Origin: Candidatus Pollutiaquabacter sp.
GTDB taxonomy: Bacteria > Bacteroidota > Bacteroidia > AKYH767-A > 2013-40CM-41-45
Assembly: GCA_947465495.1 (NCBI GenBank)
Contig: CANIAS010000009.1
Span: forward strand, 1-61,146
Length of the DNA: 61,146 nt
Direction: 5' to 3'
In this document: positions 7,657 through 59,300 of the stretch, piece by piece
Numbering within the stretch: position 1 is the first letter of the stretch
Layout: every line of letters starts with the position of its first letter
Notes under the pieces: model-generated
Seen by the model: only the letters and a program-made list of their open reading frames with translations
Told to the model about the DNA's origin: nothing
Databases searched by the model: none
Position numbers and translations under genes: made by a program

Positions 7657-7772
7657 GATTAAGGAATGATTTAGAGGAGGTTGGCAATGGTGAAAATTGT
7701 ACGGAAAATGGAGGGAATGGATACATAGCGATAAGAAAGAGGTCAAAAAACAGCAGAGAATCAGAAGAAAAT

Positions 7773-7802
7773 TTGCGAATGGTTTGTTTCTGCGTATATT
7801 TG
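7773..7802 (+). promoter_or_regulatory. Bacteroidota sigma-A promoter for tRNA-Val
   Basis: TTG at 7773-7775 is separated by 19 bases from TATATTTG at 7795-7802, an exact match to the TTG-N19-TAnnTTTG consensus. It lies 11 bases before the tRNA and is the best complete promoter in the window. Confidence 0.75.
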
Positions 7803-34354: not shown

Positions 34355-35005
34355 ATGGAAACTGTCTACGAACGAATTATTCTTGGTATAGACCCTGGCA
34401 CTCAAGTAATGGGGTTCGGAATCATCGGTATTCGCGGGAAGCAGCTAAAAGTAATTACACTTGGGGTACTTCATCAGCGTAAAACAGACGATCACTTCCT
34501 TCGGCTAAAAAAGATCTTTGAACATACCCTTCAGCTGATTGAGACTTACGCCCCGGATGAATTAGCCATCGAGGCACCTTTCTTCGGCAAGAACGTACAA
34601 TCAATGCTTAAGTTGGGGAGAGCGCAGGGAATCGCCATGGCGGCAGGATTAACGCGCGAACTACCCATCTTCGAATATTCCCCAAAGAGAATCAAGCAAA
34701 GCATTACAGGCAATGGGAATGCTTCAAAGGAGCAAGTCGCTGACATGCTTCGTCGCATGTTCAAATTTGAATCTACCACAGAACTATTGGATGCCACCGA
34801 TGGACTTGCCGCAGCAGTTTGCCATTATTTTCAAGGTAGCATGGATACTTTAGAGAGCAACCATTCAAAAGTTATAGCTAAGAAGTCGACTGGTAAGATT
34901 ACAGTAGAATCAAATGGCTCCCTCAAAAAAGGAACCAAAAAAGGCCGGACAGCAACATGGTCAAATTTCGTTAGCGAGAATCCAGACAGGATTCAGGCGA
35001 AGTGA
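34355..35005 (+). CDS. ruvC: Crossover junction endodeoxyribonuclease RuvC
   Basis: A 216-residue Holliday-junction resolvase. Catalytic acids are seen in ILGIDPGTQVMGFG (Asp13), AIEAPFFGKN, and the C-terminal DATDGLAAAVCHYF. The core is complete at about 185 residues; an extra basic tail of roughly 30 residues (rich in Lys, Gly, Ser and Thr) follows and is not part of the catalytic fold. Its end overlaps the convergent HIT gene by 13 bases. It is divergent from the flippase-like operon. Confidence 0.95.
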   Translation: METVYERIILGIDPGTQVMGFGIIGIRGKQLKVITLGVLHQRKTDDHFLRLKKIFEHTLQLIETYAPDELAIEAPFFGKNVQSMLKLGRAQGIAMAAGLTRELPIFEYSPKRIKQSITGNGNASKEQVADMLRRMFKFESTTELLDATDGLAAAVCHYFQGSMDTLESNHSKVIAKKSTGKITVESNGSLKKGTKKGRTATWSNFVSENPDRIQAK

Positions 35006-35388
35006 GCACTAATTTTTTCACAAATTTCTGCCATTGCTTCTTTGGGCAAAGACAATTTAGGATTCGCGAAATTCATATCGCTTACACGATTCATTGGTAT
35101 AAGGTGAATATGCGCATGCGGGACCTCCAAGCCAATCACCGCCACACCTATTCGCTTACACGGAACAGCGAGCTTGACAGCCTTAGCGACACGCTGAGCG
35201 AACATCCACATTCCTTTGTAGGTATCTGAATCTAAATCAAAGATATAGTCGACCTCCCTCTTAGGAATAACCAAAGTATGACCAGCCGCCAATGGACTAA
35301 TGTCTAAAAAGGCCAGGTAGTAATCATCCTCTGCAACTTTATAAGATGGAATTTCTCCGTTGACTATTTTAGTAAAGATGGTTGACAT
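34993..35388 (-). CDS. HIT-family hydrolase
   Basis: A 131-residue histidine-triad protein with IFTKIVNGEIPSYKVAE at the start, GHTLVIPKREVDYIFD in the middle and the triad HAHIHLIPMN. This matches HinT-like phosphoramidases that act on nucleotide-amine bonds. The exact substrate is unknown. It follows greA by 57 bases on the same strand and converges on ruvC. Confidence 0.94.
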   Translation of the reverse strand: MSTIFTKIVNGEIPSYKVAEDDYYLAFLDISPLAAGHTLVIPKREVDYIFDLDSDTYKGMWMFAQRVAKAVKLAVPCKRIGVAVIGLEVPHAHIHLIPMNRVSDMNFANPKLSLPKEAMAEICEKISAHFA

Positions 35389-35445: not shown

Positions 35446-35916
35446 TTACCTGGAAATTTCAAGCACTTCAAATTCCATCTTACCGCTAGGAACTTCAATC
35501 AAAGCAATTTCCCCCACTTTCTTTCCCAGCAATCCTTTTCCAATTGGACTAGAAACAGAAATCTTCCCTGCTTTAAAATCAGCTTCGTTCTCTGCCACCA
35601 ATGTATAGGTAACTTCTTGCCCAGTCTTAGTATTACGAATCCTAGCCTTACAAAGCACCAACACACGAGAATTATCCAATTTAGATTCATCAATTAAACG
35701 AGCACTGGCTACCACATCTTCCAGCTTGGATATACGGAGCTCTAATAGTCCTTGAGCGTCTTTAGCCGCATCGTATTCGGCATTCTCCGACAGGTCTCCT
35801 TTATCACGTGCTTCTGCAATCTGCTGAGAGATTTTAGGACGTTCTACATTCTTAAGCTGATTCAATTCATCCTGAAGCTTCTTCAGGCCCTCTTGAGTGA
35901 AATACTGTGCTGACAT
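35446..35916 (-). CDS. greA: Transcription elongation factor GreA
   Basis: A 156-residue GreA that rescues backtracked RNA polymerase by stimulating transcript cleavage. The N-terminal coiled coil contains LNQLKNVERPKISQQI and the acidic tip region ARDKGDLSENAEYDAAK; the C-terminal FKBP-like domain has SPIGKGLLGKKVGEIALIEV. The start at 35916 (MSAQYFTQEGLKKL) is the usual one. It is likely cotranscribed with the HIT gene. Confidence 0.97.
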   Translation of the reverse strand: MSAQYFTQEGLKKLQDELNQLKNVERPKISQQIAEARDKGDLSENAEYDAAKDAQGLLELRISKLEDVVASARLIDESKLDNSRVLVLCKARIRNTKTGQEVTYTLVAENEADFKAGKISVSSPIGKGLLGKKVGEIALIEVPSGKMEFEVLEISR

Positions 35917-36030
35917 GGCAATGAAATCTTGATGAAACATACTGCACCTAAAAAATGCAGGTAAATGGGTTTGAAATGTTTTTGATTTACTCTTCTTTTA
36001 CTAATCCTGTTTAAACCAGCACCAACTGAT

Positions 36031-36064
36031 AAAAACGAAACAAGACCCCGACAGGGATCTTGTT
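36031..36064 (-). terminator. Terminator after the PorV/PorQ-family gene
   Basis: On the minus strand the stem AACAAGATCCC pairs with GGGTCTTGTT (one G-T pair) and is followed by a T-rich run. It closes the receptor operon. Confidence 0.75.
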
Positions 36065-36089
36065 CGCTTATCAAAGATACTAATAATTT

Positions 36090-37154
36090 TTACAAGGTCA
36101 ATTTCGCACCGAATGTATGGGTGTTGTTAAACGGATTGGTAAAACGGATGGAATAGTCGATACCGAATTTCTTTCCAGATTTACCCAGTGGAACCTCGAA
36201 GGTCATACCTGCCGTAGGACCGGTATATGCAGACATCCGATTGGTAGCGTCGAAAATATCCTTCTCATACATAAAACCAGCACGCATCATGAACATTTCA
36301 CGGAAGCCATATTCAACTCCAGCTGAAGTTTGATCGTTGCTAAACGAATTGGAATTATACGTAGCAGCAAACGTAACACGGTGATCTTTCGCCGGACGGT
36401 AGTCGTAGGAAGCGCCGATATTAAGCAAGGATGGAATTTCAAATCCTTCAGCGCGTTGCTCTACTGTCATCTGATAATTACCTGATGGAGCTGTCAAGCG
36501 CGTTGAAAGACCATCGCCTCCGAATTTAAGAGTGGTCCCAACGTTCTTCAAGGAAATACCGAAGCGAATATTGTCACGGTCTTCGTTGGTACCGGTGATG
36601 TACTGAATGCCAGCATCTACACAAAGACCTTGCGCTCCAACGTTGGAGATGCTTTCATCAATGACTCGCACCGTGAATCCACCATAAATCGAATTGGAAA
36701 ACACTTTAGCGTAAGACAATCCAATGTTCAGGAACTGGGGCTTAAAAGTTCCAACCCCGCCTTCTGGAAGTGAGGTGGTAGTTACATCAATATCTCCAAA
36801 AGCCATGGACATGATTGAGATTCCCATTACACCAGACTCTCCTACCTTTTGAGTAACGCCGAAGGCGCTGATGTTTATACCACTGCCGCTCAAGAAAGAT
36901 GTGGAGGCGAACCCGGCCTCCGTCTTAGATGTACGCGCAATACCTGCAACATTCAGGAAGGTAGCTTCCAAGCCGCTGATAGAACCGCAATTTGCGTTTG
37001 CCCACCCGGATGAACGCGACCAAGGGTTAATCAACAATTCGGTGGCACCGGCCTGACCGACGCGGTCGGGGTTACCGGCGAAAGCAACTCCGCTGTACAG
37101 CAAACCTGACAGCAACAAAGCGCATGCGATGGATCCGATATGACGAGTTTTCAT
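36090..37154 (-). CDS. PorV/PorQ-family outer membrane protein
   Basis: About 354 residues; start at 37154 gives a signal peptide (MKTRHIGSIACALLLSGLLY). The mature barrel begins with the family's NPDRVGQAGATELLINPWSR and continues with conserved strands such as NVAGIARTSKTEAGFAST, FLNIGLSYAKVF, and a C-terminal GKKFGIDYSIRF with HTFGAKLTL. PorV shuttles T9SS cargo from the translocon to the sortase; PorQ paralogues also exist. This one is probably a dedicated paralogue, since it is in an operon with a receptor and a 1319-residue secreted protein. Whether it carries that protein is inference. Confidence 0.83.
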   Translation of the reverse strand: MKTRHIGSIACALLLSGLLYSGVAFAGNPDRVGQAGATELLINPWSRSSGWANANCGSISGLEATFLNVAGIARTSKTEAGFASTSFLSGSGINISAFGVTQKVGESGVMGISIMSMAFGDIDVTTTSLPEGGVGTFKPQFLNIGLSYAKVFSNSIYGGFTVRVIDESISNVGAQGLCVDAGIQYITGTNEDRDNIRFGISLKNVGTTLKFGGDGLSTRLTAPSGNYQMTVEQRAEGFEIPSLLNIGASYDYRPAKDHRVTFAATYNSNSFSNDQTSAGVEYGFREMFMMRAGFMYEKDIFDATNRMSAYTGPTAGMTFEVPLGKSGKKFGIDYSIRFTNPFNNTHTFGAKLTL

Positions 37155-37200
37155 AGTGCTTTTTTTCAATAATGATTCCATTTGTTTCCGAGTCGTAGGA

Positions 37201-40200
37201 TTAGAACGTATCAAGGTCAATTGGGCGAAGTACGCCGAACCATTTGATGGTACGCTCACCTATTCCAGGCGCGTCTACGTGGATAATGTAAAGCCCACTG
37301 GCAATTGGAACGTACTGGGAGTTTTTAAGATCCCAATCGAGTGAGGTCTCCGTATTAGTTTCAGGATAAATGGTTCCACCGGTGTTGTCAAAGCCTGCAT
37401 CGCGCTTGAGCTTGCGAACCAGAATACCGCTAGCTGTATAAATAGTCACCGTACATTGCGCAGGCAGGTTGGTAATCTTGATGCGATTATCCAATTGATT
37501 CTGCTCGTAACTAGAATACGCATAATACGGATTAGGTACAACGTTGATCAAACTCAAAGCATTGGTAGCAACATCGGTTTGCTTTACTTGAGCTGTTAAA
37601 CTATTGGTACTAAAACGGTAATAAGGAAGATAACCATGGGACGTATCTACTCCAGTTCCTTGGTACATGCGGTACGGTTTAGCAACACGCAAACGGACAC
37701 GTACATCCGAAGCGAGAACCGTCTGACCAGCTGCTGTGTAGGAACAAGAAACCCACATGCAATCTTTCCAGGTCTGGGTAATCAACTTCTTCTGAGCCGT
37801 CGTTACTGTATTTGCCAATCCCCACAAACGGTCATGAATCCACTGGCAGCCATCGTAGGCCGGACCATAATAAGTACTAGCCGTGGTAACGGTATCTGCA
37901 GTAGCAGGAAACTTCAATGATCGTTTATTGCCGAAAACATAAATGAAATGTTTACCACCGGCAATCACTCGACCTGTATCATCCAACAAAACTGTAGTTG
38001 GATTATAAATCATGTCTGCACCTGTTTGACCTAAGAATCCGTTAGCCGAAGACAGATAGCTATCCTCACCAAATGCAATGTTCAAACGCTCACCTGTTTC
38101 TACGTTAATGGCGTAGCCTGGGAACCAGCTATAACCTGAATCCACAGAACTGTAGGTGCCGTCGATATTGTAAGAAGGATGTTTACGAATTAAGTTTTTG
38201 TACTGATTACCTTCCGTATAGTTCTTGTCATTGTTGGTTTCGAATACAACGCAACGGCTCCACTTTGATTTATCACTGGTGAGTACCACATCCACTCCAC
38301 ACAGATACGAAATAGAATCCTTAGAAATTGCACCTGCAGCATCCCAGCCTGGCGCCGGAGCCAAACGATCATCGTTGGCTGTCGTAGCACACAATTTGAA
38401 TGGAGACCACGTTCCACCTAAAACTTTTTCATAAAACTGAGAATTGTCGACGCCGATATAATCAGGGTCAGGTGACGTTGCTGTACCCGCACGAATCCAG
38501 TTGAATTGCGGGAAGTTATCCAAATCAGGAACGCCGGTCAGCCACTGAGCATTATTGTCTGTATATATCTTGTTGGCCTCAATGAAGGCGTTTCCTCCGG
38601 CTTGATATTCACCTGGCCCATCTACCTGGTTCATGCTAACATAGAAACCATAATCAGGGAAAAGCTGATCGTATGGGAACTCCAAGGTTTTCTCAGAGGT
38701 GGTAGATTGACCAGAACCAAGATTCTTGAGAATCCAACGTCCACCAGAAGTGGTCGTATCAGTCAACCACAACTCGTAAGTACCAGGCACCACTTTTACT
38801 GGATCATACACTCGGATATCTACTGGACCGCGAGCCTGATCATAAATTGGATACTGAATAGCGCTTGAAGGAGCTGCGGCATTGAAAATCTCGTTATCAA
38901 TCTGATCCTGGGAAATATCCAGTGTTAAACGATCCGATCCAAGATTATACCCGTTACCTACCCCACTGATACGCTGAATGCTTGGTCCATCACCATACGA
39001 TGTATTCAGCACTAACCCCTGAGATTCCGGAGAGGAAATATGTGGAATAGCGGTATATACATTAATGGATCCGCCAATTGAATTACGACGTCCTGCCAAG
39101 TACGGCTTGCCCAATCCTTCTACATACGGATCAAACGTAGCCTGATCAGGATTGTAGGCATAAGCAATGGCCATGTAATAATAAGTCTCATGATTGACCA
39201 GATTCGGATCACCGGATGCAAATGCATCTGTTGTAATACGGAAAGTGTGGCGCAGACCTTTGTCTTCTCCAACCACTTCCTCTTCAGAAACAATGGCGTT
39301 AAGCTGTGGCTGGAAATACTGGTTCACAATTTGTGAAACACCATTTTTAACATCACATTCAAAAATCAATTTGGCTTTGTCAGGATTATTCAATTCTGTA
39401 GGAGAAACAGAAGGGTCTGAAACCTGAAACACCTTATAACCTTCGAAGACAAATTCTGAGTTAGCAAAACCTGCGGCTTGCGCTTCCAAATCTTGTTCGC
39501 GGTATTCCTCACGCTTGTTATTAGAGGATGCTGGATTAATGATCGAGAAAATCAACTCCTTGTCCAATTCACGAATACTCAGATCCGGTGCGTCCGGTCC
39601 GTCGACTACTTTAAAACAGCTATTGAAAAGGAGCTGCGCTTTATCGTCCGCCAAACGAACAAGTTTAACAGAGGCCAATGGACCACCTGAAGTAGAACGA
39701 GCCCAAACTACACCTGTAGTGATGTAGTTGACTGCACCAGGCTGCAAAGTGAAGGAACCTGCTGCTTGCAAGAAGCGACGATCATCCGGAGGATTCGGTG
39801 TTCCTCCTGGTGTTGGTTCAGATTCAGACCAAGGGAAGAGTGAATTAAGAGTCACACCACGTGTTCCCCAACCATTGGGATCGGTATCACCTGGGAACAT
39901 GAACTCACAACTGTCTGCCCCAGCAGTTTGATAACCGTTTCCGCCATACACAAGCGGAGAACCATCTTTCCAAATACCACGCATGTAGTTGTAGTATTGT
40001 TGAGCGGTGTTTGGATTTCCAATGTTTGAACCATCGTTATTATAGTAAACAAACTTGGACATGATAATTTGTTCACCTGGCTCATCAATCGTTGAATCAC
40101 GGTCGTTATCAATGCCATCACCAGCGTCGGCTAAAGGACCTTCAAAGAAATCGACCCCGACTGCCGGAGGATTGACACCATAACCAAGTGAACCATCGTC

Positions 40201-41160
40201 ATCAGCATCACCGTTGTAACAGTAGCCGAATCCACGTTTCACGTCACAACCTACATAGTCATCGAGGTAGTTACCCAAATCCGGATCAACCCATGCGCCG
40301 AAGTAGGTTTCATACAATGCCTGACTTGCCCGATTGATAATTTTATATCGGTAGAATGTCATGTTGTTGATCTCGTCGTTGGTAGCGAAAGCGAAAGCTT
40401 GCGCCTGAATTTCCACACCAATGCGGAAAAGACTTCCGGTTTCATCGTGAGGAGCATTGTTTCCATCGTCGTTGAATACCCACCAAATGGTTTGGTCACC
40501 ATACAAGAGGTCACCGCACTGAGGAGTGGAAGAAAGATTGAAGCCCGGATAATCACCGTCTTCCCAATTGTAATGTCCGTCTCCATTGGCATCCACAAAC
40601 GGTGCGAGATATGCAGCTTGGTTCAATGCAGGATCACCCTCAGCCGGCCATGTCTTGATGACATCCGGAGTATTAGGATCTACTTGGCCATTAGCCGCAT
40701 AATATTCTACGAAAGCTTTGACTTCCGCTTTATTGACTTTCCAATGACGATCATACTCCGAGCAAACATCAGCGGTGACACTAGCATTTACGGTATCCAA
40801 AGGACCAGGCCAAAAGTCACTTCCTGACTGACGGTAAGTCTGAGCAGCCACCTTCAAATTGCCACCATTATCCTTGCCACCAATCCAAATGGCTCCTGCA
40901 AATAATGAGCGCTTACCAGATCCATATGGAACTTCATACTGAGCATTACCCACCAGATCCCACCACATGTCACCATTGATGAAAATCGGACAACGAACGT
41001 TGTTGATATCCAAATCCGTCTTTGCCTTGGAGGGCTGACATCCGGCAAACATTTTTGCCCGGCCGGGATTGGCTTGTCTTTGCGTTCCTACGTTCTGTCG
41101 CGCCTGCGTCGCAGTGGCGATGAGGAAAAGAACCAATGTTGCTTTGACGAACTGCTTCAT
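37201..41160 (-). CDS. Giant secreted protein with atypical T9SS-like C-terminus
   Basis: A 1319-residue exported protein with a signal peptide (MKQFVKATLVLFLIATA). No enzymatic motif was recognised. The N-terminal part contains GDMWWDLVG, SLFAGAIWIGGKD and Asp/Asn-rich loops (EDGDYPGF, DDDGSLGYG, GDGIDNDRDSTIDEPGEQ), plausible calcium-binding loops. The last 110 residues resemble a T9SS sorting domain of a specific type: INVVPNPYYAYSSYE, then ITNLPAQCTVTIYT, SGILVRKLKRD, SGLYIIHVDAPG, ending IKWFGVLRPIDLDTF. It lies 42 bases after the receptor gene and 46 before the PorV-like gene, so the three form one unit. Confidence 0.75.
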   Translation of the reverse strand: MKQFVKATLVLFLIATATQARQNVGTQRQANPGRAKMFAGCQPSKAKTDLDINNVRCPIFINGDMWWDLVGNAQYEVPYGSGKRSLFAGAIWIGGKDNGGNLKVAAQTYRQSGSDFWPGPLDTVNASVTADVCSEYDRHWKVNKAEVKAFVEYYAANGQVDPNTPDVIKTWPAEGDPALNQAAYLAPFVDANGDGHYNWEDGDYPGFNLSSTPQCGDLLYGDQTIWWVFNDDGNNAPHDETGSLFRIGVEIQAQAFAFATNDEINNMTFYRYKIINRASQALYETYFGAWVDPDLGNYLDDYVGCDVKRGFGYCYNGDADDDGSLGYGVNPPAVGVDFFEGPLADAGDGIDNDRDSTIDEPGEQIIMSKFVYYNNDGSNIGNPNTAQQYYNYMRGIWKDGSPLVYGGNGYQTAGADSCEFMFPGDTDPNGWGTRGVTLNSLFPWSESEPTPGGTPNPPDDRRFLQAAGSFTLQPGAVNYITTGVVWARSTSGGPLASVKLVRLADDKAQLLFNSCFKVVDGPDAPDLSIRELDKELIFSIINPASSNNKREEYREQDLEAQAAGFANSEFVFEGYKVFQVSDPSVSPTELNNPDKAKLIFECDVKNGVSQIVNQYFQPQLNAIVSEEEVVGEDKGLRHTFRITTDAFASGDPNLVNHETYYYMAIAYAYNPDQATFDPYVEGLGKPYLAGRRNSIGGSINVYTAIPHISSPESQGLVLNTSYGDGPSIQRISGVGNGYNLGSDRLTLDISQDQIDNEIFNAAAPSSAIQYPIYDQARGPVDIRVYDPVKVVPGTYELWLTDTTTSGGRWILKNLGSGQSTTSEKTLEFPYDQLFPDYGFYVSMNQVDGPGEYQAGGNAFIEANKIYTDNNAQWLTGVPDLDNFPQFNWIRAGTATSPDPDYIGVDNSQFYEKVLGGTWSPFKLCATTANDDRLAPAPGWDAAGAISKDSISYLCGVDVVLTSDKSKWSRCVVFETNNDKNYTEGNQYKNLIRKHPSYNIDGTYSSVDSGYSWFPGYAINVETGERLNIAFGEDSYLSSANGFLGQTGADMIYNPTTVLLDDTGRVIAGGKHFIYVFGNKRSLKFPATADTVTTASTYYGPAYDGCQWIHDRLWGLANTVTTAQKKLITQTWKDCMWVSCSYTAAGQTVLASDVRVRLRVAKPYRMYQGTGVDTSHGYLPYYRFSTNSLTAQVKQTDVATNALSLINVVPNPYYAYSSYEQNQLDNRIKITNLPAQCTVTIYTASGILVRKLKRDAGFDNTGGTIYPETNTETSLDWDLKNSQYVPIASGLYIIHVDAPGIGERTIKWFGVLRPIDLDTF

Positions 41161-41202
41161 CGTATAGAGAGGTATTGTTTTCGAATTAGTTGAACAAGCG
41201 AA

Positions 41203-44200
41203 TTAGAAATTAATCATTACACCCAGGCGCATACGACGAGGTAAGCTATAGTTGCCAGGATTGTTAACCGCCACTTCGTATAAGTCTACGTAAGCTTGCG
41301 GATCAACTTTACTCTGGATGTTAGACTGAGCTCCTGGAGAAGTGATATAGCCGTCGTCACTAGGACTGCCTGTTGCAGCATAGACTGCATTGATATTCTG
41401 CGTATTCAAAACGTTTAGGATCTGCAAGTAAACCTGGCCTGACAATGGACGACGAGCTTCTCCATCGGAACGTTTACCCGTGGTGATATTGAAGCCTTTA
41501 TCGAAGCGTGCATCAATACGGAACTGCCAAGGAAGTCGTGACCCATTCAACTGACCAGAAATCACCGAACGGCTGTTAGCCGCCGAGGTAAAGTCAGCAG
41601 TAGGAGTGATGTTCGACTTACGAGTGTATGGAGTACCTGAACCAGCGCGGAACACCAGGTTCATACCGGCCATTGCAAAAACTTGCTTGCCCCACCATAC
41701 TGGTCCATTGTAATCCTTACCGGCACCATAGTGGTAATCGAAGGAAGTAACAAACGTATGACGTTGATCGAAGTTAAGTGGCTTAGGTTCGCGCAAGTTG
41801 GTCTGACCCTGTTGCGCCAATAAACCTGCATTCGTATTTGGATCCGAACCGGTACCATTTGCAAAAGACAACGTATAGCTCACACTCATACGAACGTTAT
41901 TCGTACGGCGAAGATCATATGCAAATGAAAGACCCTTGGTTGTACCAAAGTCGATGTTGCCATAGGTATTGTACGAAATAGGGTACGCATACAACACGTT
42001 AATGATCTGAATCATGTTGCGCAACTCGCGGTAGAACGCAGAGATGGAGAGCGCAGATGAACGACTGAGTCGCTGCTGGAATGACAATTCATATTCTGTG
42101 GTACGCTCAGGCTTGAGATCCGGATTGCTGATTGTACCAGAAACACCTTGAGCCAAGCTACGATAAGAAACCGGATTAAAACGAAGAAGTCCACCATCTT
42201 GCGGACGCTGCGTCAACACATCGTAGTGTGCCTTGAAATTAGCCTCGTCAGAAATTGGGAAAGCGAAGGCGATACGAGGCATGATATTGACTTGTGGATT
42301 ATATCGCTCAAAGATATTAGAACGAACCACCGCATTCTGTACGTCATTCGGGTCTTTGATGAAAGGCTGGATACCATTGGAATTACCACCGCCTTCAAGC
42401 AAAGGTGTAAGGTCGGAAATTTCGTTTCCTTGGGCATCATACCACTGATCGTCGTTACGGTAACCTACAATCTGAGTCGGATTATTCACGCTGTTTACAT
42501 ACACCGCATAATCATCGCCAATATTGTTCGGAATATCACCCAGGTTTTTTGACTCCTGGTCGCCTGCACGATACGCATCAAATAAAAGGTATTTGTCCTT
42601 CAATACATATTGATTGGCATCGAAGTAATCGACGCGGACACCGATATTGAACGTAAGGTCGTTGAAGTTGAAGCGATCCTGAATATAACCTGCGATATAC
42701 GTAGGACGGAAGGCATCAATAGTACGTGTGAAGTTATTGTCTGCATCCTGCTGGTCGTAGTAATCCATGAAGGAAGGACGGGCGGTCTGCTTGTTGCCGA
42801 GATAATCATAGCCATAATAACCAACGAGTCCAGAAAGCTCGTCAGGCGTGAACATGTTCAAATTCAAACGACTTGGATCAATTGCATCCACTTGTACTGT
42901 ATCCGTTAAACCCAATCCAAGTTCGGCGCGAATATTTTCATAGAAACCAGGTGCTACTTCTCCTATGAGATTGGTCGTAGGCTCATATTTAGAATCGAAG
43001 TTCACGTAGGTAACCGTATCTCCGTTCGAATAATCATAGGAGTACTGTGCTGTGTTCTCATCGTAGCCGGTGATGTTCGCATTGCCGAGGAAACGAGCAA
43101 GCGACCAAAGACTGCTGGCAGCGACGCTATAACCACGGTCTGTTCGTTGCTCAAATTCGCCACCAACAATAATGTTATGGTTTTTAATATCTGCAGAGAA
43201 CGATGCCACAAAACGGAACTGAGAATTGTCTGACTTGCTGAATCCATTACGCACACGGCCTGGAGTAGCATTAAGACCATACACTTGCAATCCTGCACGG
43301 TTGTCGCCATTAACAAGGCCACCGCGGAGAATGACATCATCGTAAGAATCCTGATATCCAGGAGTTCCAAAAGGATCGGTCAAGGCATAATACTGACTGG
43401 TATAGTTGGTGGTGTATGGATTCTGTGTGCCGGGAACAAAATCAAATAAAGTATCAAAGTTGGCCACTTGAGTTAAAACGACAGAATCCGACAATCCCGG
43501 ACGTTCGATAGCATCTGCTGTATAGAACGGAACAGAATAGCGGGTAAAACTACCTACATATCCATAGTCGAAGATGCGGTCGCGGTGAAGCTCACTCTCA
43601 GAAACGGAAGTGTTCTTGGAATAATCGGCCTGAATGGTATAAAACGCATTCTTGATATTCGAAGATGCTTTTTCATCCTCACTGGACGTAAAGCGCTGGG
43701 TCATTTTACCAAAGACACGCCAATTAGTACCTGTGGTGACAGGATTCTGATCGTAGTTCATCAACGAATAAATGTCAATATAATCGTGACTAGATGTACG
43801 CTCAAAGGAACCACCAAAGGTGACATTCACATTGTTTGTCGGTGCCAAATCCAATTTGCCATTCAATCGAACGGCATTCGAGGCCACGTTTGGACGATAC
43901 TTCTGTGTCGTCAGATCATCGTAGGTAAAGAAATTGGATTGGTGAATGTAGTTAGAACCAAACGGAGAACGGACCAATGGATTTTGGCGGACATCGTTTA
44001 GAACGTCTTCTTTAACGACGTAAATAGGAATAGAAGATGGACTTGCGTCGCGGTCTCCTTGATACTCACCGGCTAAGAAGAAACCAGCCGCAGAACCGGT
44101 TTTGCGACCCGTCGAATCGCGACGGCTAACAATAGGACCAGAAAGATCAAATGCTGCCAATTTATAACCATAGTCATCAAACAGTTCTGAGGTCGCCAAT

Positions 44201-44904
44201 TCTATGCCTCCGGCAAACTCACGGGAAGGTCCACGTGTCGTGATACTAATAATACCACCAGTCGCATCCCCGTATTGTGCTGGAACACCACCGGTGATAA
44301 CCGTAATCTGTTCCTGGCCTTTTTGAGGAAGACCGACACTTCCACGGACTTTAATACCATCCACAAAATAAACCGTACCGTCAGAACGTGATCCACGGAT
44401 ATTCAAGGCATCACCTTGGTCTTTTTGAAATACACCAGCCGTTTGAGAAGCCAAGGAGTTGACATCACGGGTAGGTGCAGCTTGAATTTCTTCGAAAGTA
44501 ACTGTCTTAGCCGTTGAAGGGCTTCCCTTGTCAATAAGCGGAACCGTGTATTCTACCACTTCCACTGCTTTCAATTCAACCCCTTTAGAGAGGTCAAAAT
44601 TTGCGAATGCAATTTTGTCGGCAGTGACCAATACACTGTTGAGCTGTTTGGCGTTGTAACCAACACAGGTGACCTTGACGTCGTATCGGCCAGGGTTTAA
44701 CGGCTTGATGGAGAAATTCCCATCGAAATCGGTCACAGCTCCCTGGACCTGATTACCGTTCAACAAAGCCGCTACGCTGGCAAACGGAACTCCTTCCGTG
44801 CTTCCTGATTCGGTGACTTTACCTCGAATTTCGCCAGTCTGGGCGAACGCCGATACAGTAAAGAAGAAAAATAAAAGGAGCGGTACATAAACCTTACGTC
44901 CCAT
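41203..44904 (-). CDS. TonB-dependent outer membrane receptor, very large
   Basis: About 1233 residues; start at 44904 gives the signal peptide MGRKVYVPLLLFFFFTVSA. A carboxypeptidase-D-like regulatory domain (GEIRGKVTESGSTEGVPFA, AVTDFDGNFSIKPLNPGRY) is followed by a plug domain (EIQAAPTRDVNSL, DALNIRGSRSDGTVYFVDG) and a long barrel to the terminal RMRLGVMINF. At over 1200 residues it is longer than typical siderophore receptors. Its ligand is unknown. It is first in the operon with the 1319-residue protein and a PorV-like barrel; there is no SusD, unlike the classical glycan-uptake pair. Confidence 0.9.
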   Translation of the reverse strand: MGRKVYVPLLLFFFFTVSAFAQTGEIRGKVTESGSTEGVPFASVAALLNGNQVQGAVTDFDGNFSIKPLNPGRYDVKVTCVGYNAKQLNSVLVTADKIAFANFDLSKGVELKAVEVVEYTVPLIDKGSPSTAKTVTFEEIQAAPTRDVNSLASQTAGVFQKDQGDALNIRGSRSDGTVYFVDGIKVRGSVGLPQKGQEQITVITGGVPAQYGDATGGIISITTRGPSREFAGGIELATSELFDDYGYKLAAFDLSGPIVSRRDSTGRKTGSAAGFFLAGEYQGDRDASPSSIPIYVVKEDVLNDVRQNPLVRSPFGSNYIHQSNFFTYDDLTTQKYRPNVASNAVRLNGKLDLAPTNNVNVTFGGSFERTSSHDYIDIYSLMNYDQNPVTTGTNWRVFGKMTQRFTSSEDEKASSNIKNAFYTIQADYSKNTSVSESELHRDRIFDYGYVGSFTRYSVPFYTADAIERPGLSDSVVLTQVANFDTLFDFVPGTQNPYTTNYTSQYYALTDPFGTPGYQDSYDDVILRGGLVNGDNRAGLQVYGLNATPGRVRNGFSKSDNSQFRFVASFSADIKNHNIIVGGEFEQRTDRGYSVAASSLWSLARFLGNANITGYDENTAQYSYDYSNGDTVTYVNFDSKYEPTTNLIGEVAPGFYENIRAELGLGLTDTVQVDAIDPSRLNLNMFTPDELSGLVGYYGYDYLGNKQTARPSFMDYYDQQDADNNFTRTIDAFRPTYIAGYIQDRFNFNDLTFNIGVRVDYFDANQYVLKDKYLLFDAYRAGDQESKNLGDIPNNIGDDYAVYVNSVNNPTQIVGYRNDDQWYDAQGNEISDLTPLLEGGGNSNGIQPFIKDPNDVQNAVVRSNIFERYNPQVNIMPRIAFAFPISDEANFKAHYDVLTQRPQDGGLLRFNPVSYRSLAQGVSGTISNPDLKPERTTEYELSFQQRLSRSSALSISAFYRELRNMIQIINVLYAYPISYNTYGNIDFGTTKGLSFAYDLRRTNNVRMSVSYTLSFANGTGSDPNTNAGLLAQQGQTNLREPKPLNFDQRHTFVTSFDYHYGAGKDYNGPVWWGKQVFAMAGMNLVFRAGSGTPYTRKSNITPTADFTSAANSRSVISGQLNGSRLPWQFRIDARFDKGFNITTGKRSDGEARRPLSGQVYLQILNVLNTQNINAVYAATGSPSDDGYITSPGAQSNIQSKVDPQAYVDLYEVAVNNPGNYSLPRRMRLGVMINF

Positions 44905-44974
44905 AGTACACCTGTTTTTTTGAGATTGGATGTATTTCATGAAGGTGGTAAAAGTAGGAATTGTGTTAAAATAA

Positions 44975-44982
44975 CAAAAATA
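44975..44982 (-). promoter_or_regulatory. -7 element of the receptor operon
   Basis: The minus strand reads TATTTTTG, matching TAnnTTTG, about 70 bases before the receptor start. It is divergent from the smc promoter. Confidence 0.45.
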
Positions 44983-45097
44983 TTGTTTTAAGAATGGGGA
45001 CTAAAGGTCTACTCCCTGATGGCTAGCGCTTTAGGTTTGGAAAAGCAAAATAATAGTCAAGTTATTAACAAAACTGAGGCTTCCTGTCCAAATAAAT

Positions 45098-50306: not shown

Positions 50307-53300
50307 TTATTCAAGGATGATTCGCAATGTCTGCGAATCCTTGCTAGTTGATTGGATATTCAGCATATATACACCTTTAGCCATATCAGAAAGATCCAAT
50401 TCCTTGATATTTTCCCCGGCAGACACCGGTAAATACTCGGCATAGATCTGCTTTCCTAATAGATCTATCAATCTCAAGGTATAAGTAGAAGCTTCTGGTG
50501 CGTTTAACTTGACAGTCAAGCGGCCATTGGTAGGGTTCGGGAAGGCATTGACTTCCATATTTGTCAATCCATTTCCAGCATCACGGCAACTCAAGTTAAC
50601 ACTCACATTTAAACGTTGCGCAGTACTTGAACCGCAAGCATTGTTGGCAGTAACAGTTACAGATGCCGTAGTAGCAGTAGCTGTAGTGAAGTTAGCGGTA
50701 CCCGTAGTTGATGTACCAGAAATAGTCGCGCCTCCGGATATTGCCCATGTGTAACCGGTAGCATTCGTTACCGCTGCTATTGAATATGCAACAGCACTAG
50801 CAGTCCTTTTACACACTGAAGCAGAACCAGTAATTGCGGCAGGTGTAGCCGGTTTAGCTGTTACTGCAAGACAACGAGATGTGCCCGCTCCGCAAGCATT
50901 TGTAGCCGATACGCAAACGTTACCTGAAACAAATGTAGTGGCGATAGATACAGTGATAGAAGTTCCTGTATTAGCAGTAATTGTCATGCCAGTTGGCACC
51001 GTCCAGGTGTAAGCAGTAGCTCCAGTAACTGCAGCAATGGACCATGTTGCCGTTGTTACATTCGAATTGCGACATAATCCAGCCGATGGACCTGTAATAC
51101 CACCAGGTTGGCTAGGCGTAGCATATAAGGTATATGTTCGAGATCCTGTACCACATGAATTTGTAGCTGATACTATCAACGTTCCACCGGTCCAGTTTGA
51201 AGCGAAGTTAACCGTACATGAGGTACCATTAGAGGAGGCTATAGTAGCATTACCAGTAGTAGACCAAGAGTAACTCACAGCGCCCGCAACGCTAGAAATT
51301 GAATACGAACCAGTAGTGTTTGCGCAAGGATATAACGAGCCAGTTAATCCGGTTCCAACTACTGGGGCTCCATACACTACACGGTAACTAACAGAACTCG
51401 ATCCGATACAATTAGATGCGGTCACCCCAATTTGAGTATTTGTAAATCCCGAAGGAACACTGACAGTAATGATGTTGGTGCCATTACCACTGATAATTGT
51501 AGCTTGAGTACCTGAAACCGTCCATGTATAGTTGGATGTAGTCGAATTAGTAGCAACAGAGTAGGTATACGTGCCAGGTCCACATGGATAAGCAGGACCA
51601 TCAATTGCTCCAGGATACGGTGCCTTGGCTGAAATAACACGCACATTTAAGCAAGAAGAAGGTCCGCTTGTGCAGCTATTCACACCGCGTACACACAAGT
51701 TGCCACCAGCATAGTTAGCACCAAAAGTCACGGTAATGCTATTGGTAGTCGAGGAGCCCGTTGCATTCGAAGGAAGCGTCCAACTATAGGATGTGGCACC
51801 GGCTACCACAGGAACCGTGAAGGTTGCCGTAGCTCCGACACAAACATCTGTTGCACCTGCAATGGAACCAGGAGTACTAGGTGTACCGATTGTAGTAACA
51901 ATAGAGCAGGTCGCTGTAGAAGTACATCCATTGTTATCCGTAACAGTTACCGTGTAACTTCCTTGAGACAAGCCACTGGAAGTTGCAGTTGTAGCACCGT
52001 TTGACCACCAGTAATACGTGTAAGGAGTTGTTCCGCCAGTAGCTGCTACTGTAGCACTTCCATCGTTTCCGCAAGTTGAATTCAACACACTGGTAGACAA
52101 CTGAATTGCTGATGGCTGACTAAGGGTAATAGAAGTGATTGAAGAACAACTGTTAGCATCAGTTACAGTATAGGTGTAACTGCCAACTGAAACGGTGTAC
52201 GATCCAGTACCAACATAAGGTGCTGTGCCGCCATTTGCTGCGACTGTCACTGAAGTAGTTCCGCCGTTACAGGCAATACTTGCTGCAGATGATGAAGCAG
52301 ACAATGAGGTTGGTTGGGTAACCGCAATAGACGTAACTGACTTACAACCGTTGGCATCTGTTACTGTATAGGAGTAAGATCCAGCCGAAATCGTGAAGCT
52401 ACCTGTTCCAGAGTATGGAGTTGTACCGCCAGTTGCAGAAACAGCTACCGTAGTCGTACCACCATTACAAGCAATCGAGCCAGAGGACGATGATGCTGAC
52501 AATGCGCTTGGCTCAACTATAGTAATCGATGTCGACGTTGAACACCCATTGTCATCACTCACTGTATAGGTGTAGGTGCCAGCTGAAGTTGTATAAGAAC
52601 CTGTACCCGTATAAGGAGCCGTACCGCCACTAGCCGAAACGGTTACTGAAGTTGTACCGCCGTTACATGCTATCGAACCCGAAGTTGATGATGCTGACAG
52701 TGAACTTGGCTGACCTATCGTAATTGAGGTCGTTGTTGAACATCCGTTGGCATCACTTACCGTGTAGGTGTATGAACCAGCAGTTTCAGTGAAAGAACCT
52801 GTTCCGGTATAAGGAGATGTACCACCGCTGGCCGAAACAGTTACTGTAGTTGTTCCGCCATTACATACAATTGACCCTGAATTTGAGGATGCTGACACTG
52901 CACTTGGCTGAGCTATCGTGATTGACGTAGTTGTTGAACAACCATTGGCATCACTCACTGTGAAGGTGTATGAACCAGCTGAACGTGTATAAGAACCTGT
53001 ACCAGTATAAGGAGCAGTACCGCCGCTAGCGGATACAGTTACAGTGGTTGAACCACCGTTACATGCTATAGAACCTGAAGTAGATGACGCAGATACTGAG
53101 CTTGGCTGACCCACCGTAATGGAAGTGGTTGTTGCACAACCGTTTGCATCACTCACCGTGTAGCTATGGGATCCTGCCGATACTGTATAAGCACCTGTTC
53201 CAGCGTATGGAGCAGTGCCACCAGTAGCAGATACCGTAACCGTGGTTGAACCGCCATTACATGCAATCAATCCAGAAGTTGAAGATGCTGACAGCAAACT

Positions 53301-56300
53301 TGGCTCACTGACCGTGATTGATGTTGTTGTTGAACAACCATTGGCATCACTCACCGTGTAGGTATATGAACCCGCTGACACGGTGAAGCTACCTTCACCG
53401 GTGTATGGAGCGGTACCGCCGTTAGCAGTTACGGTTACTGTCGTGGAGCCGCCATTACATGCAATCGAACCAGCAGTAGATGATGCAGACACAGCGCTAG
53501 GTTGAGTTACAGTTCCTGATGTAACTGCAGAACAGCCAATAGCATCGGTTACCGTAAAGCTATAAGCACCAGCAGAAACCGTAAAGTTACCTGTACCAGT
53601 AAACGGTGCATTTCCGCCTATCGCTGATACAGAGATGGTTGCGGTTCCTCCATTACAAGTTATGCTGCTCACCTCACTGGAAGAGGCAGACATTGCGCAA
53701 GCTGGATCTAAAACATTAGAACAAGAACTTGCTGTACAGCCATTAGCATCAGTAACGGTAATACAGTAATTACCTGAAGCTAATCCTGATAAATCAGTAT
53801 ACGAATATGGAGCTGTTCCACCTGAAACATTTGTTACTGTTACCGTCCCATCATTACAGGTCGTGCATGAACGATTACTACCTGCTGTAGAAACTGACAA
53901 CGCACTTGGCTGACCAATCGTGATCGACGTAGTCGTCGTACAACCATTATCATCACTTACGGTATAGTTATGTGTACCTGCTGATACCGTAAAGCTACCT
54001 TCACCAGTATATGGAGAAGTTCCACCGCTTACAGAAACTACTACCGTGGTTGACCCGCCGTTACAAACAATTGATCCAGCAGTTGATGATGCAGTCAATG
54101 AACTAGGCTGACCAATCGTAATTGAGGTCATCGATGAGCATCCGTTTACATCACTCACAGTATAGGTATAGGAGCCGGCCGATACCGTAAATGAACCTAT
54201 GCCAGCATATGGAGTTGTACCACCATTAGCAGATACAATTACCGTAGTTGATCCACCATTACATGCAATCGAACCAGAAGTTGATGATGCTGCCAATGAA
54301 TTTGGTTCACTTACCGAAATCGAAGTTGTTGTTATACAACCATTGTCATCACTCACTGTGTAGGTATGTGAACCTGCACCTACTGTATAGGAACCTGTGC
54401 CAACGTATGGAGCAGTTCCTCCAGTAGCAGATACCGTTACTGTGGTTGAACCGCCATTACATGCAATTGAACCAGAAGTAGATGATGCTGATAAAGCACT
54501 AGGCTCACCTACCGTAATTGAGGTTGATGTTGAACAACCATTGTCATCAGTTACCGTGTAGGTATAGGAACCCGCTGACACTGTGAAGCTACCTTCACCG
54601 GAGTATGGAGCAGCACCACCGTTAGCAGAAACCACTACCGTGGCTGATCCGCCGTTACAAGCAATTGATCCTGCAGTAGATGATGCGGACAACGCACTTG
54701 GCTGACCAAGAGTAATTGATGTTATGGCTGAACAACCATTATCATCTGATACGGTGTAGGTATAAGAGCCTGCTGATACCGTATATGTACCCGTACCAGC
54801 ATATGGAGCCGTACCGCCATTAGCAGAAACAATTACAGTAGTTGAACCACCATGACAATCAATCGAACCAGAAGTAGATGATGCTGACAATGAACTTGGT
54901 TCACCTACCGTAATGGAAGTGGTTGTTATACAACCATTGTCATCACTGACCGTGTAGGTATATGAACCTGCACTTACGGTATAGGTGCCTGTGCCAGAGT
55001 ATGGAGCAGTTCCTCCAGTAGCAGATACAGTTACTTCGGTTGATCCGCCATTACATGCAATCGAACCAGAATTAGAAGTTGCTGATAAAGCACTAGGCTC
55101 ACCTACCGTAATGGAGGTTGCTGTTGAACAACCATTGCCATCACTAACCGTGTAGGTATAAGAACCTGCTGATACCGTGAAGCTTCCTTCACCAGTATAT
55201 GGAGATGTTCCGCCGTTAGCAGAAACCACTACTGTGGTTGATCCGCCGTTACAAGCAATCGATCCAGATGTAGATGATGCTGACAATGAACTTGGCTGAC
55301 CAACCGTAATGGATGTAGTAGTTAAACAACCATTAGCATCAGTTATGGTATAGGTATAAGATCCTGCTGAAACATTGAATACACCTGTTCCAGCGTATGG
55401 AGTTGTTCCACCATTTGCCGAAACAGTTACATCGGTTTTACCACCATTACAATTGATTGAAGCAGCAGTTGATGACGCTGACAGCGAACTTGGCTGACCA
55501 ACTGTGATGGCTGTGATCGTCGAACAACCATTGGCATCACTCACCGTGTAGGTATATGAACCTGCACTTACGGTATAGGCACCTGTGCCAGCATACGGAG
55601 CAGTTCCTCCAGTAGCAGATACAGTTACTGTGGTTGATCCGCCATTACATGCAATCGAACCAGAATTAGACGTTGCTGATAAAGCACTAGGCTCACCTAC
55701 CGTAATAGAGGTTGCTGTTGAACAACCATTTCCATCACTCACCGTGTAGGTATAAGAACCTGCTGAAACCGTGAAGCTTCCTTCTCCGGTATATGGAGAT
55801 GTTCCACCGTTTGCAGAAACCACTATTGTGGTTGATCCGCCGTTACAAGAAATTGATCCGGAAGTTGATGATGCCGTCAATAAACTTGGTTGACCTATCG
55901 TGACTGAAGTGGTCGTAGAACAACCATTAGCATCACTTACTGTGTAAGTTGATGTACCTGCAGATGCTGTAAAGTTACCAGCACCTGTGTACGGTGATGT
56001 ACCACCGTTGGCAGATACGGCTACCGTGGTTGTAGCGCCATTACAAGCTATAGAACCAGCAGTAGATGATGCGGACAACGCGGAAGGTTGAGTAACAGTA
56101 ATTGAAGTCACATTGGAGCAACCACGAGAATCGGATACGGTATAGCTACGCGAACCAGCAGTAACCGTGAAGTTGCCTGTCCCTGTATATGGTGTGGTAC
56201 CACCGGTAGCCGAAACCGTTACAGTGGTAGAGCCGCCGTTACATGCAATGGATCCGGAAGTCGAGGATGCAACAACTGCAGTTGGCTGAGAAATTGTAAC

Positions 56301-59300
56301 TGTAGTCGAACTTGTACAACCACGATTATCCGTTACAGTATATGTATACGTTCCGGCTGATACCGTATTGTTACCCGTACCTGTATAAGGTGACGTACCA
56401 CCCGTTGCTCTAACCTGAACAGTTGTTGTTCCGCCAAAACATGAGATAGTTCCAGTGTTAGTAGAAGCAACCAGTAAATTAGGCTGAGTTACGTTGATGG
56501 AAGAGACTGCTGTACAACCATTCGCATCAGTTACAGTATACGAGTAAGAACCCGCTGTTACTGTAAAGCTGCCGGTTCCTGTGTACGGGGTCGTTCCGCC
56601 GCTACCTGAAACTGTGACTGTTGTAGAGCCGCCGTTACAAGTGATAGCACCAGAAGAAACCGAAGATGCAGTCAATGCCGTTGGCTGAGTGATAGTGATG
56701 GAAGTAGTACTACTACAACCACGGGTATCAGTTACAGTATAATTGCGAGTACCTGCTGTAACCGTAAAATTACCGGTACCAGTATACGGAGTTGTTCCGC
56801 CAGTTGCAGAAACCGCAACAGTTGTTGACCCTCCATTGCAAGAAATCGTTCCAGCGCTAGATGCAGCAACGAGTCGAGCAGGCTGAGTCACCGTAATTGG
56901 TGAAACTGAGGTACATCCTTTGCTATCCGTAACTGTATAATTGTAACTACCTGCAGAAACCGTGAAATTACCCGCACCCGTGTATGGAGTTGTTCCACCC
57001 GTAGCTGCAACAGTAACAGTGGTAGTGCCACCAAAACATGCGATAGTACCCGACGAAGAAGTCGCTACAAGCTGTGTAGGTTGGGTAAGTGTGCCCGAGG
57101 TGGTTGCCGTACAACCATTAGCGTCAGTAACCGTGTAAGTATAAGCACCAGCTGCAGTAGCAATCGCGCCAGTTCCTGAATACGGTGTTGTTCCTCCTGT
57201 AGCAGTAACTGTCACGTTTGCAGTTCCACCGAAACAGGAAATAGCTGCAGCGGTTGAACTGGATGCTAAAGCTGCGGTAGGTTGTGTAACAGCAACACTG
57301 CCAGTAGCCGTCGAACCGTTAGCATCAGTTACTGTGACCACATAGGTGCCACTTGTTAGGCTGCTGAGGTCTTCAGTAGTAGCACCATTATTCCAAGAGT
57401 ACACATACGGTGAAACTCCCGTGTTAATTGTCAAATTAACAGATCCGTTAGATCCACCAAAACAAGACACATTGGTTTTAGCCAAAGTCATTGTCACCGG
57501 ATAGCCAGAACATGCACCAGAAACTGGCTGGAAGCCGGTTGCCGACGGCTGATCGTCCGTTCCATTTACCAACCATGGAGTAAAGTTCACATCTCCGTTG
57601 ACTTTTGGATCAACAGCCTGATAACTGAGTACACCATACCAGTTACAAGATGCATTGACACTACCCGTATACCAGGTAATATCAGCACTTGTCGCACTAG
57701 CGTAGGTAGCAACAGCATCACGTCCAGTATACTTGAACGTATTGTTGTTAATCGTGACGTTGGTAAGACTGGCTGTTGTTTGTGTGACATTAGTCCTATC
57801 CTGAATCAACACACCATACGAGAAACAAGAATCCATTGAGTTGTTTTGAATGGATGTATTATAAGCAACAGAACCCAGAGAAACAGCTGCATGCAATGCA
57901 TTATTAGCAGTACTGTTCTTACTGATATAATAAAATACGTTAGCCTGCACATTATTATCGCGAATTGAATTTGCAGCATTATTATTAATCAAGACTCCGC
58001 CTAAACCACAATTCGTGATGGTGTTATTTACAATATTTGAATTGCGCAAGAAATAGTAATACATCCCGTAGTTACCGAGGTTTTTAATTTCGTTGCTATC
58101 TACTTGCAAGTAATCTCCGCAATTAGTAGCTGGCGTACTGCCGTTACCGATACCTTCTCCACCCGGAGCAGTAAAGGACGTTCCATCCAGAATATTATTA
58201 CGGATGATAATCATGTTACTAGCATCTGCACCACGAGCGCGAATAGCAATTAAGCGCTTGTTGGTAGTCATCTGAGAACTAGCCTGAATTGTGAAATTCA
58301 TGATGGAGGCTCCATTGGTCATGTTCATCCCTGCAGTTGCCCCAACCTGAATAACTTCAGCAACTGCTGATGCCGCTTTCAAAATCGTAGTGGTCTTATT
58401 AGCGCCGATGAGGGCTACTGATTTATTCAAATCTATTCGGGCATTATAGGTTCCAGCATCAACCAAAATGGTATCGCCAGCACTTGCCATGGTTATGGCT
58501 TTTGCAATGGTCAGATATGGACATCCTGGCATACCACTATTATTATCATTACCTACCGCGGTGGTAACTAAATCTCCAGTTGTGCTATTATCGTTTACGT
58601 ACCAGATTCGTCCCGTGTGGACCGGAGAAGCAATTGTGCCGCTTGTAACCGCTGTGCATCCACGAGCATCAGTAACTGTGTAGGAATAATTACCGGCAGA
58701 AGCTGTCATAGCTCCTGTTCCAGAATAAGGTGAAGTTCCACCACTAGCAGAAACTGTAACGGTGGTTGTGCTGCTTCCACAAGTAATTGTACCTGCAGAT
58801 GCGCTCGCAATTAACTGAGTAGGTCCGGCATTGATAGTCGCACTGGCAGTAGCCGTACAACCTCGAGCATCGGTAGACGTGTAGCTATAAGTTCCTGCAG
58901 ATAAAGCAGTGGTAGAACTTCCTGAATAATTATATGGAGAAGTACCTCCGGTTGAGCTCAAGGAAACACTACCTGTCCCACCAAAACAAGCAATTTGCGT
59001 TGGGGTAGCTGTCAATACCAATAAGGCGGGAGCAGCATTAATCGTCACAGCACCTGTTGAGGTACAGCCATTGGCATCCGTTACCGTATATGAATAATTA
59101 CCAGCAGTCAAGTTGGTCGTAGCCGTACTATTATAGGTATATGATGGTGTTCCACCGGTAGTACTGAGACTTACACTTCCTGTACCTCCGAAGCAACTAA
59201 TTTGGGTCGGCGTAGTAGTAAGAATCAATCGTGACGGAACCGAAATTGTTCCTGACGTAGTAGAAGTACACCCGCGTGAGTCGGTGACCGTATAGGAATA

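Follow-up and report, generated by a model that had tools for sequence, protein, structure and literature searches.

What might a TonB-dependent receptor, a giant exported protein and a barrel of the PorV/PorQ family do together when they are encoded in one run on one strand, in a locus that holds no SusD? We investigated this question in a window of 61,146 nucleotides (the whole stretch of DNA that was analyzed) from Candidatus Pollutiaquabacter sp. The minus strand carries the three ORFs at 36090–44904, in the order receptor, giant exported protein, PorV/PorQ-family barrel, and the intergenic gaps are 42 and 46 bases, given the likely start codons. The ORF coordinates agree with an earlier note on this DNA, which had described such a one-strand operon with these gaps. 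Its remark on the missing SusD also holds, as none lies between or beside the three genes.

Signals for transcription were found on both sides of the operon, with differing weight. A Bacteroidota-type promoter-like site, TTTA-N19-TATTTTTG (44975–45005, minus strand; a consensus match only), stands 70 bases ahead of the likely receptor start at 44904, and sites of this type number 2 across the window against 0.58 expected. The other perfect match (7772–7802, plus strand) lies immediately before tRNA-Val. Sigma-70-like promoters were discarded as candidates, as their 18 occurrences in the window are at chance level (18.7 expected). Downstream of the barrel gene, a terminator-like hairpin of 12 pairs with a T-rich run (36038–36065, minus strand) is the strongest of 12 terminator-like sites in the window, a count near chance (10.0 expected). 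Next on the minus strand come greA (35446–35940; PF03449 and PF01272), a conserved neighbor that serves as a locus marker, and a HIT-domain gene (34993–35388; PF01230), which was also found in 57 fetched loci, the window not counted. Elsewhere on the same strand, the window encodes a second giant T9SS cargo near the operon (50307–61121; 3604 residues, with HYR, SprB-repeat and PKD-like domains and a Por_Secre_tail) and a gingipain-type C25 peptidase with a C25 propeptide and a T9SS tail (18148–20418).

The first gene (41203–44904, minus strand) encodes a carboxypeptidase-like domain (PF13620), a plug (PF07715) and a barrel (PF00593), all above their cut-offs, and the plug and barrel identify the product as a TonB-dependent receptor. 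Its longest ORF starts at 44940, but the more likely start is 44904 (MGRKVY...), where the earlier note had also placed the end of the operon; this gives 1233 amino acids with a signal peptide, consistent with the length of over 1200 residues proposed before. The receptor had no match to TIGR04056 and is therefore not a SusC. A conserved stretch, vev..y.vPLi, ahead of the plug is a candidate position for the TonB box.

The middle gene (37201–41160, minus strand) encodes 1319 amino acids, beginning with a signal peptide recognized by inspection, and no Pfam family matched anywhere along this length. The description of the protein as lacking recognized domains was therefore correct for Pfam; PorZ, PorU and TIGR04183 do match its C-terminus, though below threshold. 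Residues 1196–1312 (37225–37575, minus strand) form a T9SS type-A-like C-terminal domain (CTD), assigned by structure and by the PorZ profile match. In structure it is nearest to PorZ (5m11, Z 9.8) and PorU (6za2, Z 8.2), with the mirolase CTD at Z 6.9, and PorZ is also its top profile match among solved structures (E 5.3e-9). The structural criterion for type A cargo is an Ig-like sandwich at the C-terminus that shares homology with the CTDs known from T9SS, and this protein has one. Of 28 such domains, 27 match the PorZ model. Comparison with TIGR04183, which the earlier note had suggested, came out divided: 20 of the 28 domains match, and a homolog from another class reaches 24.1 bits, but the window's own domain scores 16.5 bits, below the cut-off of 23. 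Overall, the likeness to PorZ and PorU in profile and structure supports the sorting-like C-terminus that the note had read from the sequence.

The domain is followed by a tail, RPIDLDTF (residues 1312–1319; 37204–37227, minus strand), which lies past the usual CTD end: ordinary type A domains stop at KFAxIK, whereas true orthologs of the middle protein extend about eight residues further. Among 81 homologs, the arginine is kept in 80, the aspartate in 81 and a terminal F or Y in 72, and within Bacteroidia the arginine, the aspartate and the final aromatic residue are nearly invariant. The tail, singled out earlier as a specific feature, is thus a conserved family signature.

Regarding the body, residues 41–516 (39613–41040, minus strand) are predicted to form an N-terminal beta-supersandwich of the glycosidase/phosphorylase type, judging from a structure model (residues 22–700, pLDDT 90), VIA (Z 19.2 over 251 residues) and Foldseek (E 1.5e-5). 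The best structural matches were dextran dextrinase (9ju0), GH94 and GH116 (Z 16–19 over about 250 residues, at about 10% identity). The secondary structure predicted for residues 22–700 and 690–1319 showed no catalytic helical (alpha/alpha)6 barrel, and the sugar-enzyme-like sandwich fold, itself modeled, is by itself no proof of sugar binding. Residues 521–691 (39088–39600, minus strand) appear, from predicted secondary structure, to be a further beta-sandwich, probably fibronectin-III-like by inspection. Residues 690–1319 were modeled at pLDDT 85; Foldseek returned no significant match for this C-terminal half, and structure comparison gave no confident fold match for residues ~700–1195, a segment that is present in Bacteroidia and largely absent from other classes. 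Several relatives (G031, G032, G036 and others) also carry stand-alone paralogs of ~540–620 residues that match just residues 37–520, some of them in tandem.

The third gene (36090–37154, minus strand) has an ORF that opens at 37259 and a likely start (MKTRH) at 37154, which gives 354 amino acids. The product, likely a dedicated shuttle and anchor, scores 133.7 bits against the NCBIfam PorV_fam model NF033709 (subfamily cut-off 90), in line with its earlier assignment to the PorV/PorQ family. Its scores against the PorV, PorQ and PorV2 equivalogs (54.6, 54.6 and 37.4 bits) do not reach their cut-offs (250, 220 and 325), and the true PorV, PorQ and PorV2 are three other genes, one each, of the same genome. 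In a tree of 112 sequences (FastTree supports; two mis-cut sequences, L143 and L144, left out), the 91 barrels encoded in such operons, whichever class they come from, fall together in one clade (support 0.97) that is separate from PorV, PorQ and PorV2; the grouping with general PorV that the earlier note had raised against its own proposal did not appear. The barrel had no match to TIGR03519 (PorP/SprF), and none of 64 barrels carries a CxC-type twin-cysteine tail, and a gliding-track linkage like that of SprF (PMC12635249) was rejected on this ground. We also rejected an identity with the Bacteroidota BAM complex, whose BamG has been described as FadL-like and works with other partners (PMC12611786, PMC12578637), as BamG and these partners do not match this operon. 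In addition, the PorV2 gene of this genome (NF052325, 487 bits; locus L005, contig C5, 50866–54825) adjoins an ORF with a PorU-like start, possibly a second sortase pair.

Of 100 relatives, 91 have a homolog of the middle protein, in most cases at 45–67% identity and often along its entire length. Drawing on 80 named loci and the window, we obtained 66 Bacteroidia loci in which the three genes could all be seen, and every one kept the receptor–middle–barrel order and strand. Where there was room to see it, greA lay within 700 nt downstream of nearly all Bacteroidia triples (60 of 63). The middle gene and the barrel were jointly present or absent in 14 of 14 genomes tested (10 with neither, 4 with both). 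Ten near-complete genomes of class Bacteroidia lack the triple, an absence that may be part of the reason why laboratory strains did not reveal it. Initially, 15 of the 80 loci showed no partner genes, and some of these end at contig edges. Partnerless loci are mostly extra copies, because 10 of 11 checked genomes that had first shown an orphan middle gene also carry the canonical middle–barrel–greA locus elsewhere. Such orphans, away from receptor and barrel, were seen at L079, L086, L088, L091, L092, L104 and L109 (mostly labeled Crocinitomicaceae or Flavobacteriales), and by analogy with orphan type B cargo, which share a shuttle, they may share the operon barrel. We therefore reject a scattering of the three genes among relatives, which the earlier note had seen as a threat to its proposal; the order also held in all of the best loci from other classes.

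Beyond Bacteroidia, a profile search that sampled 118 genomes from the whole phylum Bacteroidota detected the middle-protein family in 34 of them, and the best 20 other-class loci, once fetched, all had receptor, middle gene and barrel in this order on one strand (20 of 20). The middle proteins of these classes are shorter (~1100 residues) and match residues 35–665 and the C-terminal domain. Four other-class genomes carry 10–18 PorV-family barrel genes. In one complete genome, 9 of 16 such genes sit in triples of receptor, CTD protein and barrel, and two more follow a CTD protein; five triples were seen in a second genome. Middle proteins of the expanded triples range from ~700 to 1290 residues and have divergent bodies, with no Pfam family in the four tested. 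Within one genome that has nine paralogous triples, the distances between CTDs correlated with those between barrels (r = 0.68), and the distances between receptors did so too (r = 0.76; p = 0.0006 each). This correlated divergence fits cognate sets, although operon co-inheritance alone would give the same. The triple, put forward earlier as a local candidate within the window, is thus a real operon but of larger scope: the module is phylum-wide, and in other classes it has expanded into families.

Because its order is conserved across the phylum, the triple points to an undescribed surface machine, probably one that captures and imports something. Across 100 genomes, the middle gene largely co-occurred with SprA (89 with both, 4 with neither, 5 with SprA only, 2 with the middle gene only; Fisher p = 4e-4). 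We lean, with modest confidence, toward a single outer-membrane surface complex, a T9SS-built counterpart of SusCD that imports a ligand through the TonB-dependent receptor. The signal peptide would bring the middle protein across the inner membrane, and with its C-terminal domain the protein would pass SprA, the T9SS translocon of the outer membrane; the operon's own PorV-family barrel would take this domain from SprA and retain it. The N-terminal body, held on the surface beside the receptor, would then act as SusD does over SusC, capturing a ligand and passing it to the receptor for TonB-powered import. We propose a glycan or glycoconjugate as the probable ligand because of the sugar-enzyme-like sandwich domain. 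What the data show directly is the gene order, the families, the separate barrel clade, the homology of the CTD and the co-occurrence with the barrel and largely with SprA; the physical complex, the anchoring by the barrel, the ligand and the direction of transport are inferred. The dedicated shuttle with a docked receptor that the earlier note had imagined fits this picture, by analogy with PorQ–PorZ, PorV–PorU and SprF–SprB.

Several observations bear on the uptake complex from either side. The constant gene order, the joint occurrence of middle gene and barrel, the association with SprA, the separate barrel clade and the PorZ- and PorU-like CTD favor it. The cargo-then-barrel layout, the same as that of type B cargo genes, favors it by analogy, and the 10–18 barrel genes of other-class genomes, many in triples with different bodies, are what would be expected of ligand-diversified uptake systems. 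Against it stand the sub-cut-off TIGR04183 score of the window's CTD, the low identity of the body fold match and the two genomes (80% and 95% complete) that hold the middle gene without detected SprA. Moreover, the mostly single copy fixed beside greA in Bacteroidia looks more like housekeeping than a variable nutrient system. This last point, together with the PorZ-like CTD and the reported delivery of A-LPS by PorZ (PMC8545088), favors the main rival, namely an envelope-maintenance or T9SS-maturation complex like PorZ–PorQ, in which the middle protein would bind a glycan of the cell surface, for example LPS, and TonB energy would come from the receptor, which might instead provide a docking site; no nutrient would be imported. 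We consider this role unlikely overall: a single genome can hold as many as nine triples whose bodies diverge, which suits varied ligands better, and since five SprA-bearing genomes have no detected middle gene, the protein is not a universal T9SS part.

Less probable still is that the general PorV carries the middle protein as it would any type A cargo, to be LPS-anchored or released, with the barrel a FadL-like porin that is adjacent through shared regulation. The genome does possess a general PorV, PorV is the carrier of those type A CTDs that have been tested to date (PMC12618676), and type A signals are thought to rely on this one general carrier, dedicated shuttles being reserved for type B (PMC12618676). 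However, the separate barrel clade, the joint presence or absence of middle gene and barrel, the gene order kept across classes and the tail past the usual CTD end all argue against this reading. The identical order and strand in every complete locus would also suit a receptor and barrel that help to export or assemble the middle protein, with nothing imported through the receptor. This we judge very improbable, as the carboxypeptidase-like, plug and barrel domains of the receptor are of the standard kind, some middle genes are orphans with no receptor nearby, and we found no precedent for a TonB receptor in T9SS export.

Returning to the uptake complex, a wider reading, to which we give somewhat less than an even chance, is that the triple represents a widespread class of TonB uptake systems, in which a T9SS-delivered ligand binder is fixed by its own PorV-type barrel as the counterpart of SusD, and in which the PorV family diversified with one carrier per cargo and receptor. 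The triple would then link T9SS to TonB-dependent transport and explain the many PorV-family genes of many Bacteroidota genomes. A type-A-like signal paired with its own PorV-family barrel also makes cargo–carrier specificity testable.

Each half of the module has a precedent, but the open-access literature searched (preprints lay outside its scope) contained no description of the triple, nor of a combined, phylum-wide and multiplied module. As in SusCD, a large TonB receptor is encoded with a candidate surface ligand-binding protein, and the set is multiplied in some genomes; unlike SusCD, SusD is missing, the receptor is not TIGR04056, and the surface protein is of the T9SS type with a barrel partner and not a lipoprotein. 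In the SprB–SprF system of F. johnsoniae (type B cargo with a PorP/SprF shuttle), a cargo gene is likewise followed directly by the gene of a FadL-type barrel; for type B cargo in general, the gene of the cognate SprF-like shuttle comes immediately after that of the cargo (PMC12618676), and the shuttle anchors the cargo (PMC9143113). Here, by contrast, the barrel is of the PorV_fam, the CTD is type-A-like, the twin-cysteine tail is missing and a receptor gene lies upstream. In P. gingivalis, PorZ is anchored by PorQ and PorU by PorV (PMC5562754), and the CTDs of PorZ and PorU stay uncleaved, for which protection by cognate PorV-like barrels has been suggested in a review (PMC10202324). The triple resembles these pairs of the T9SS attachment complex in joining a PorV-family barrel to one partner with a retained type-A-like CTD, such holding being presumed here, and differs in that the barrel gene comes immediately after the gene of its partner, the set includes a TonB-dependent receptor, and the fold of the body is unlike the propellers of PorZ.
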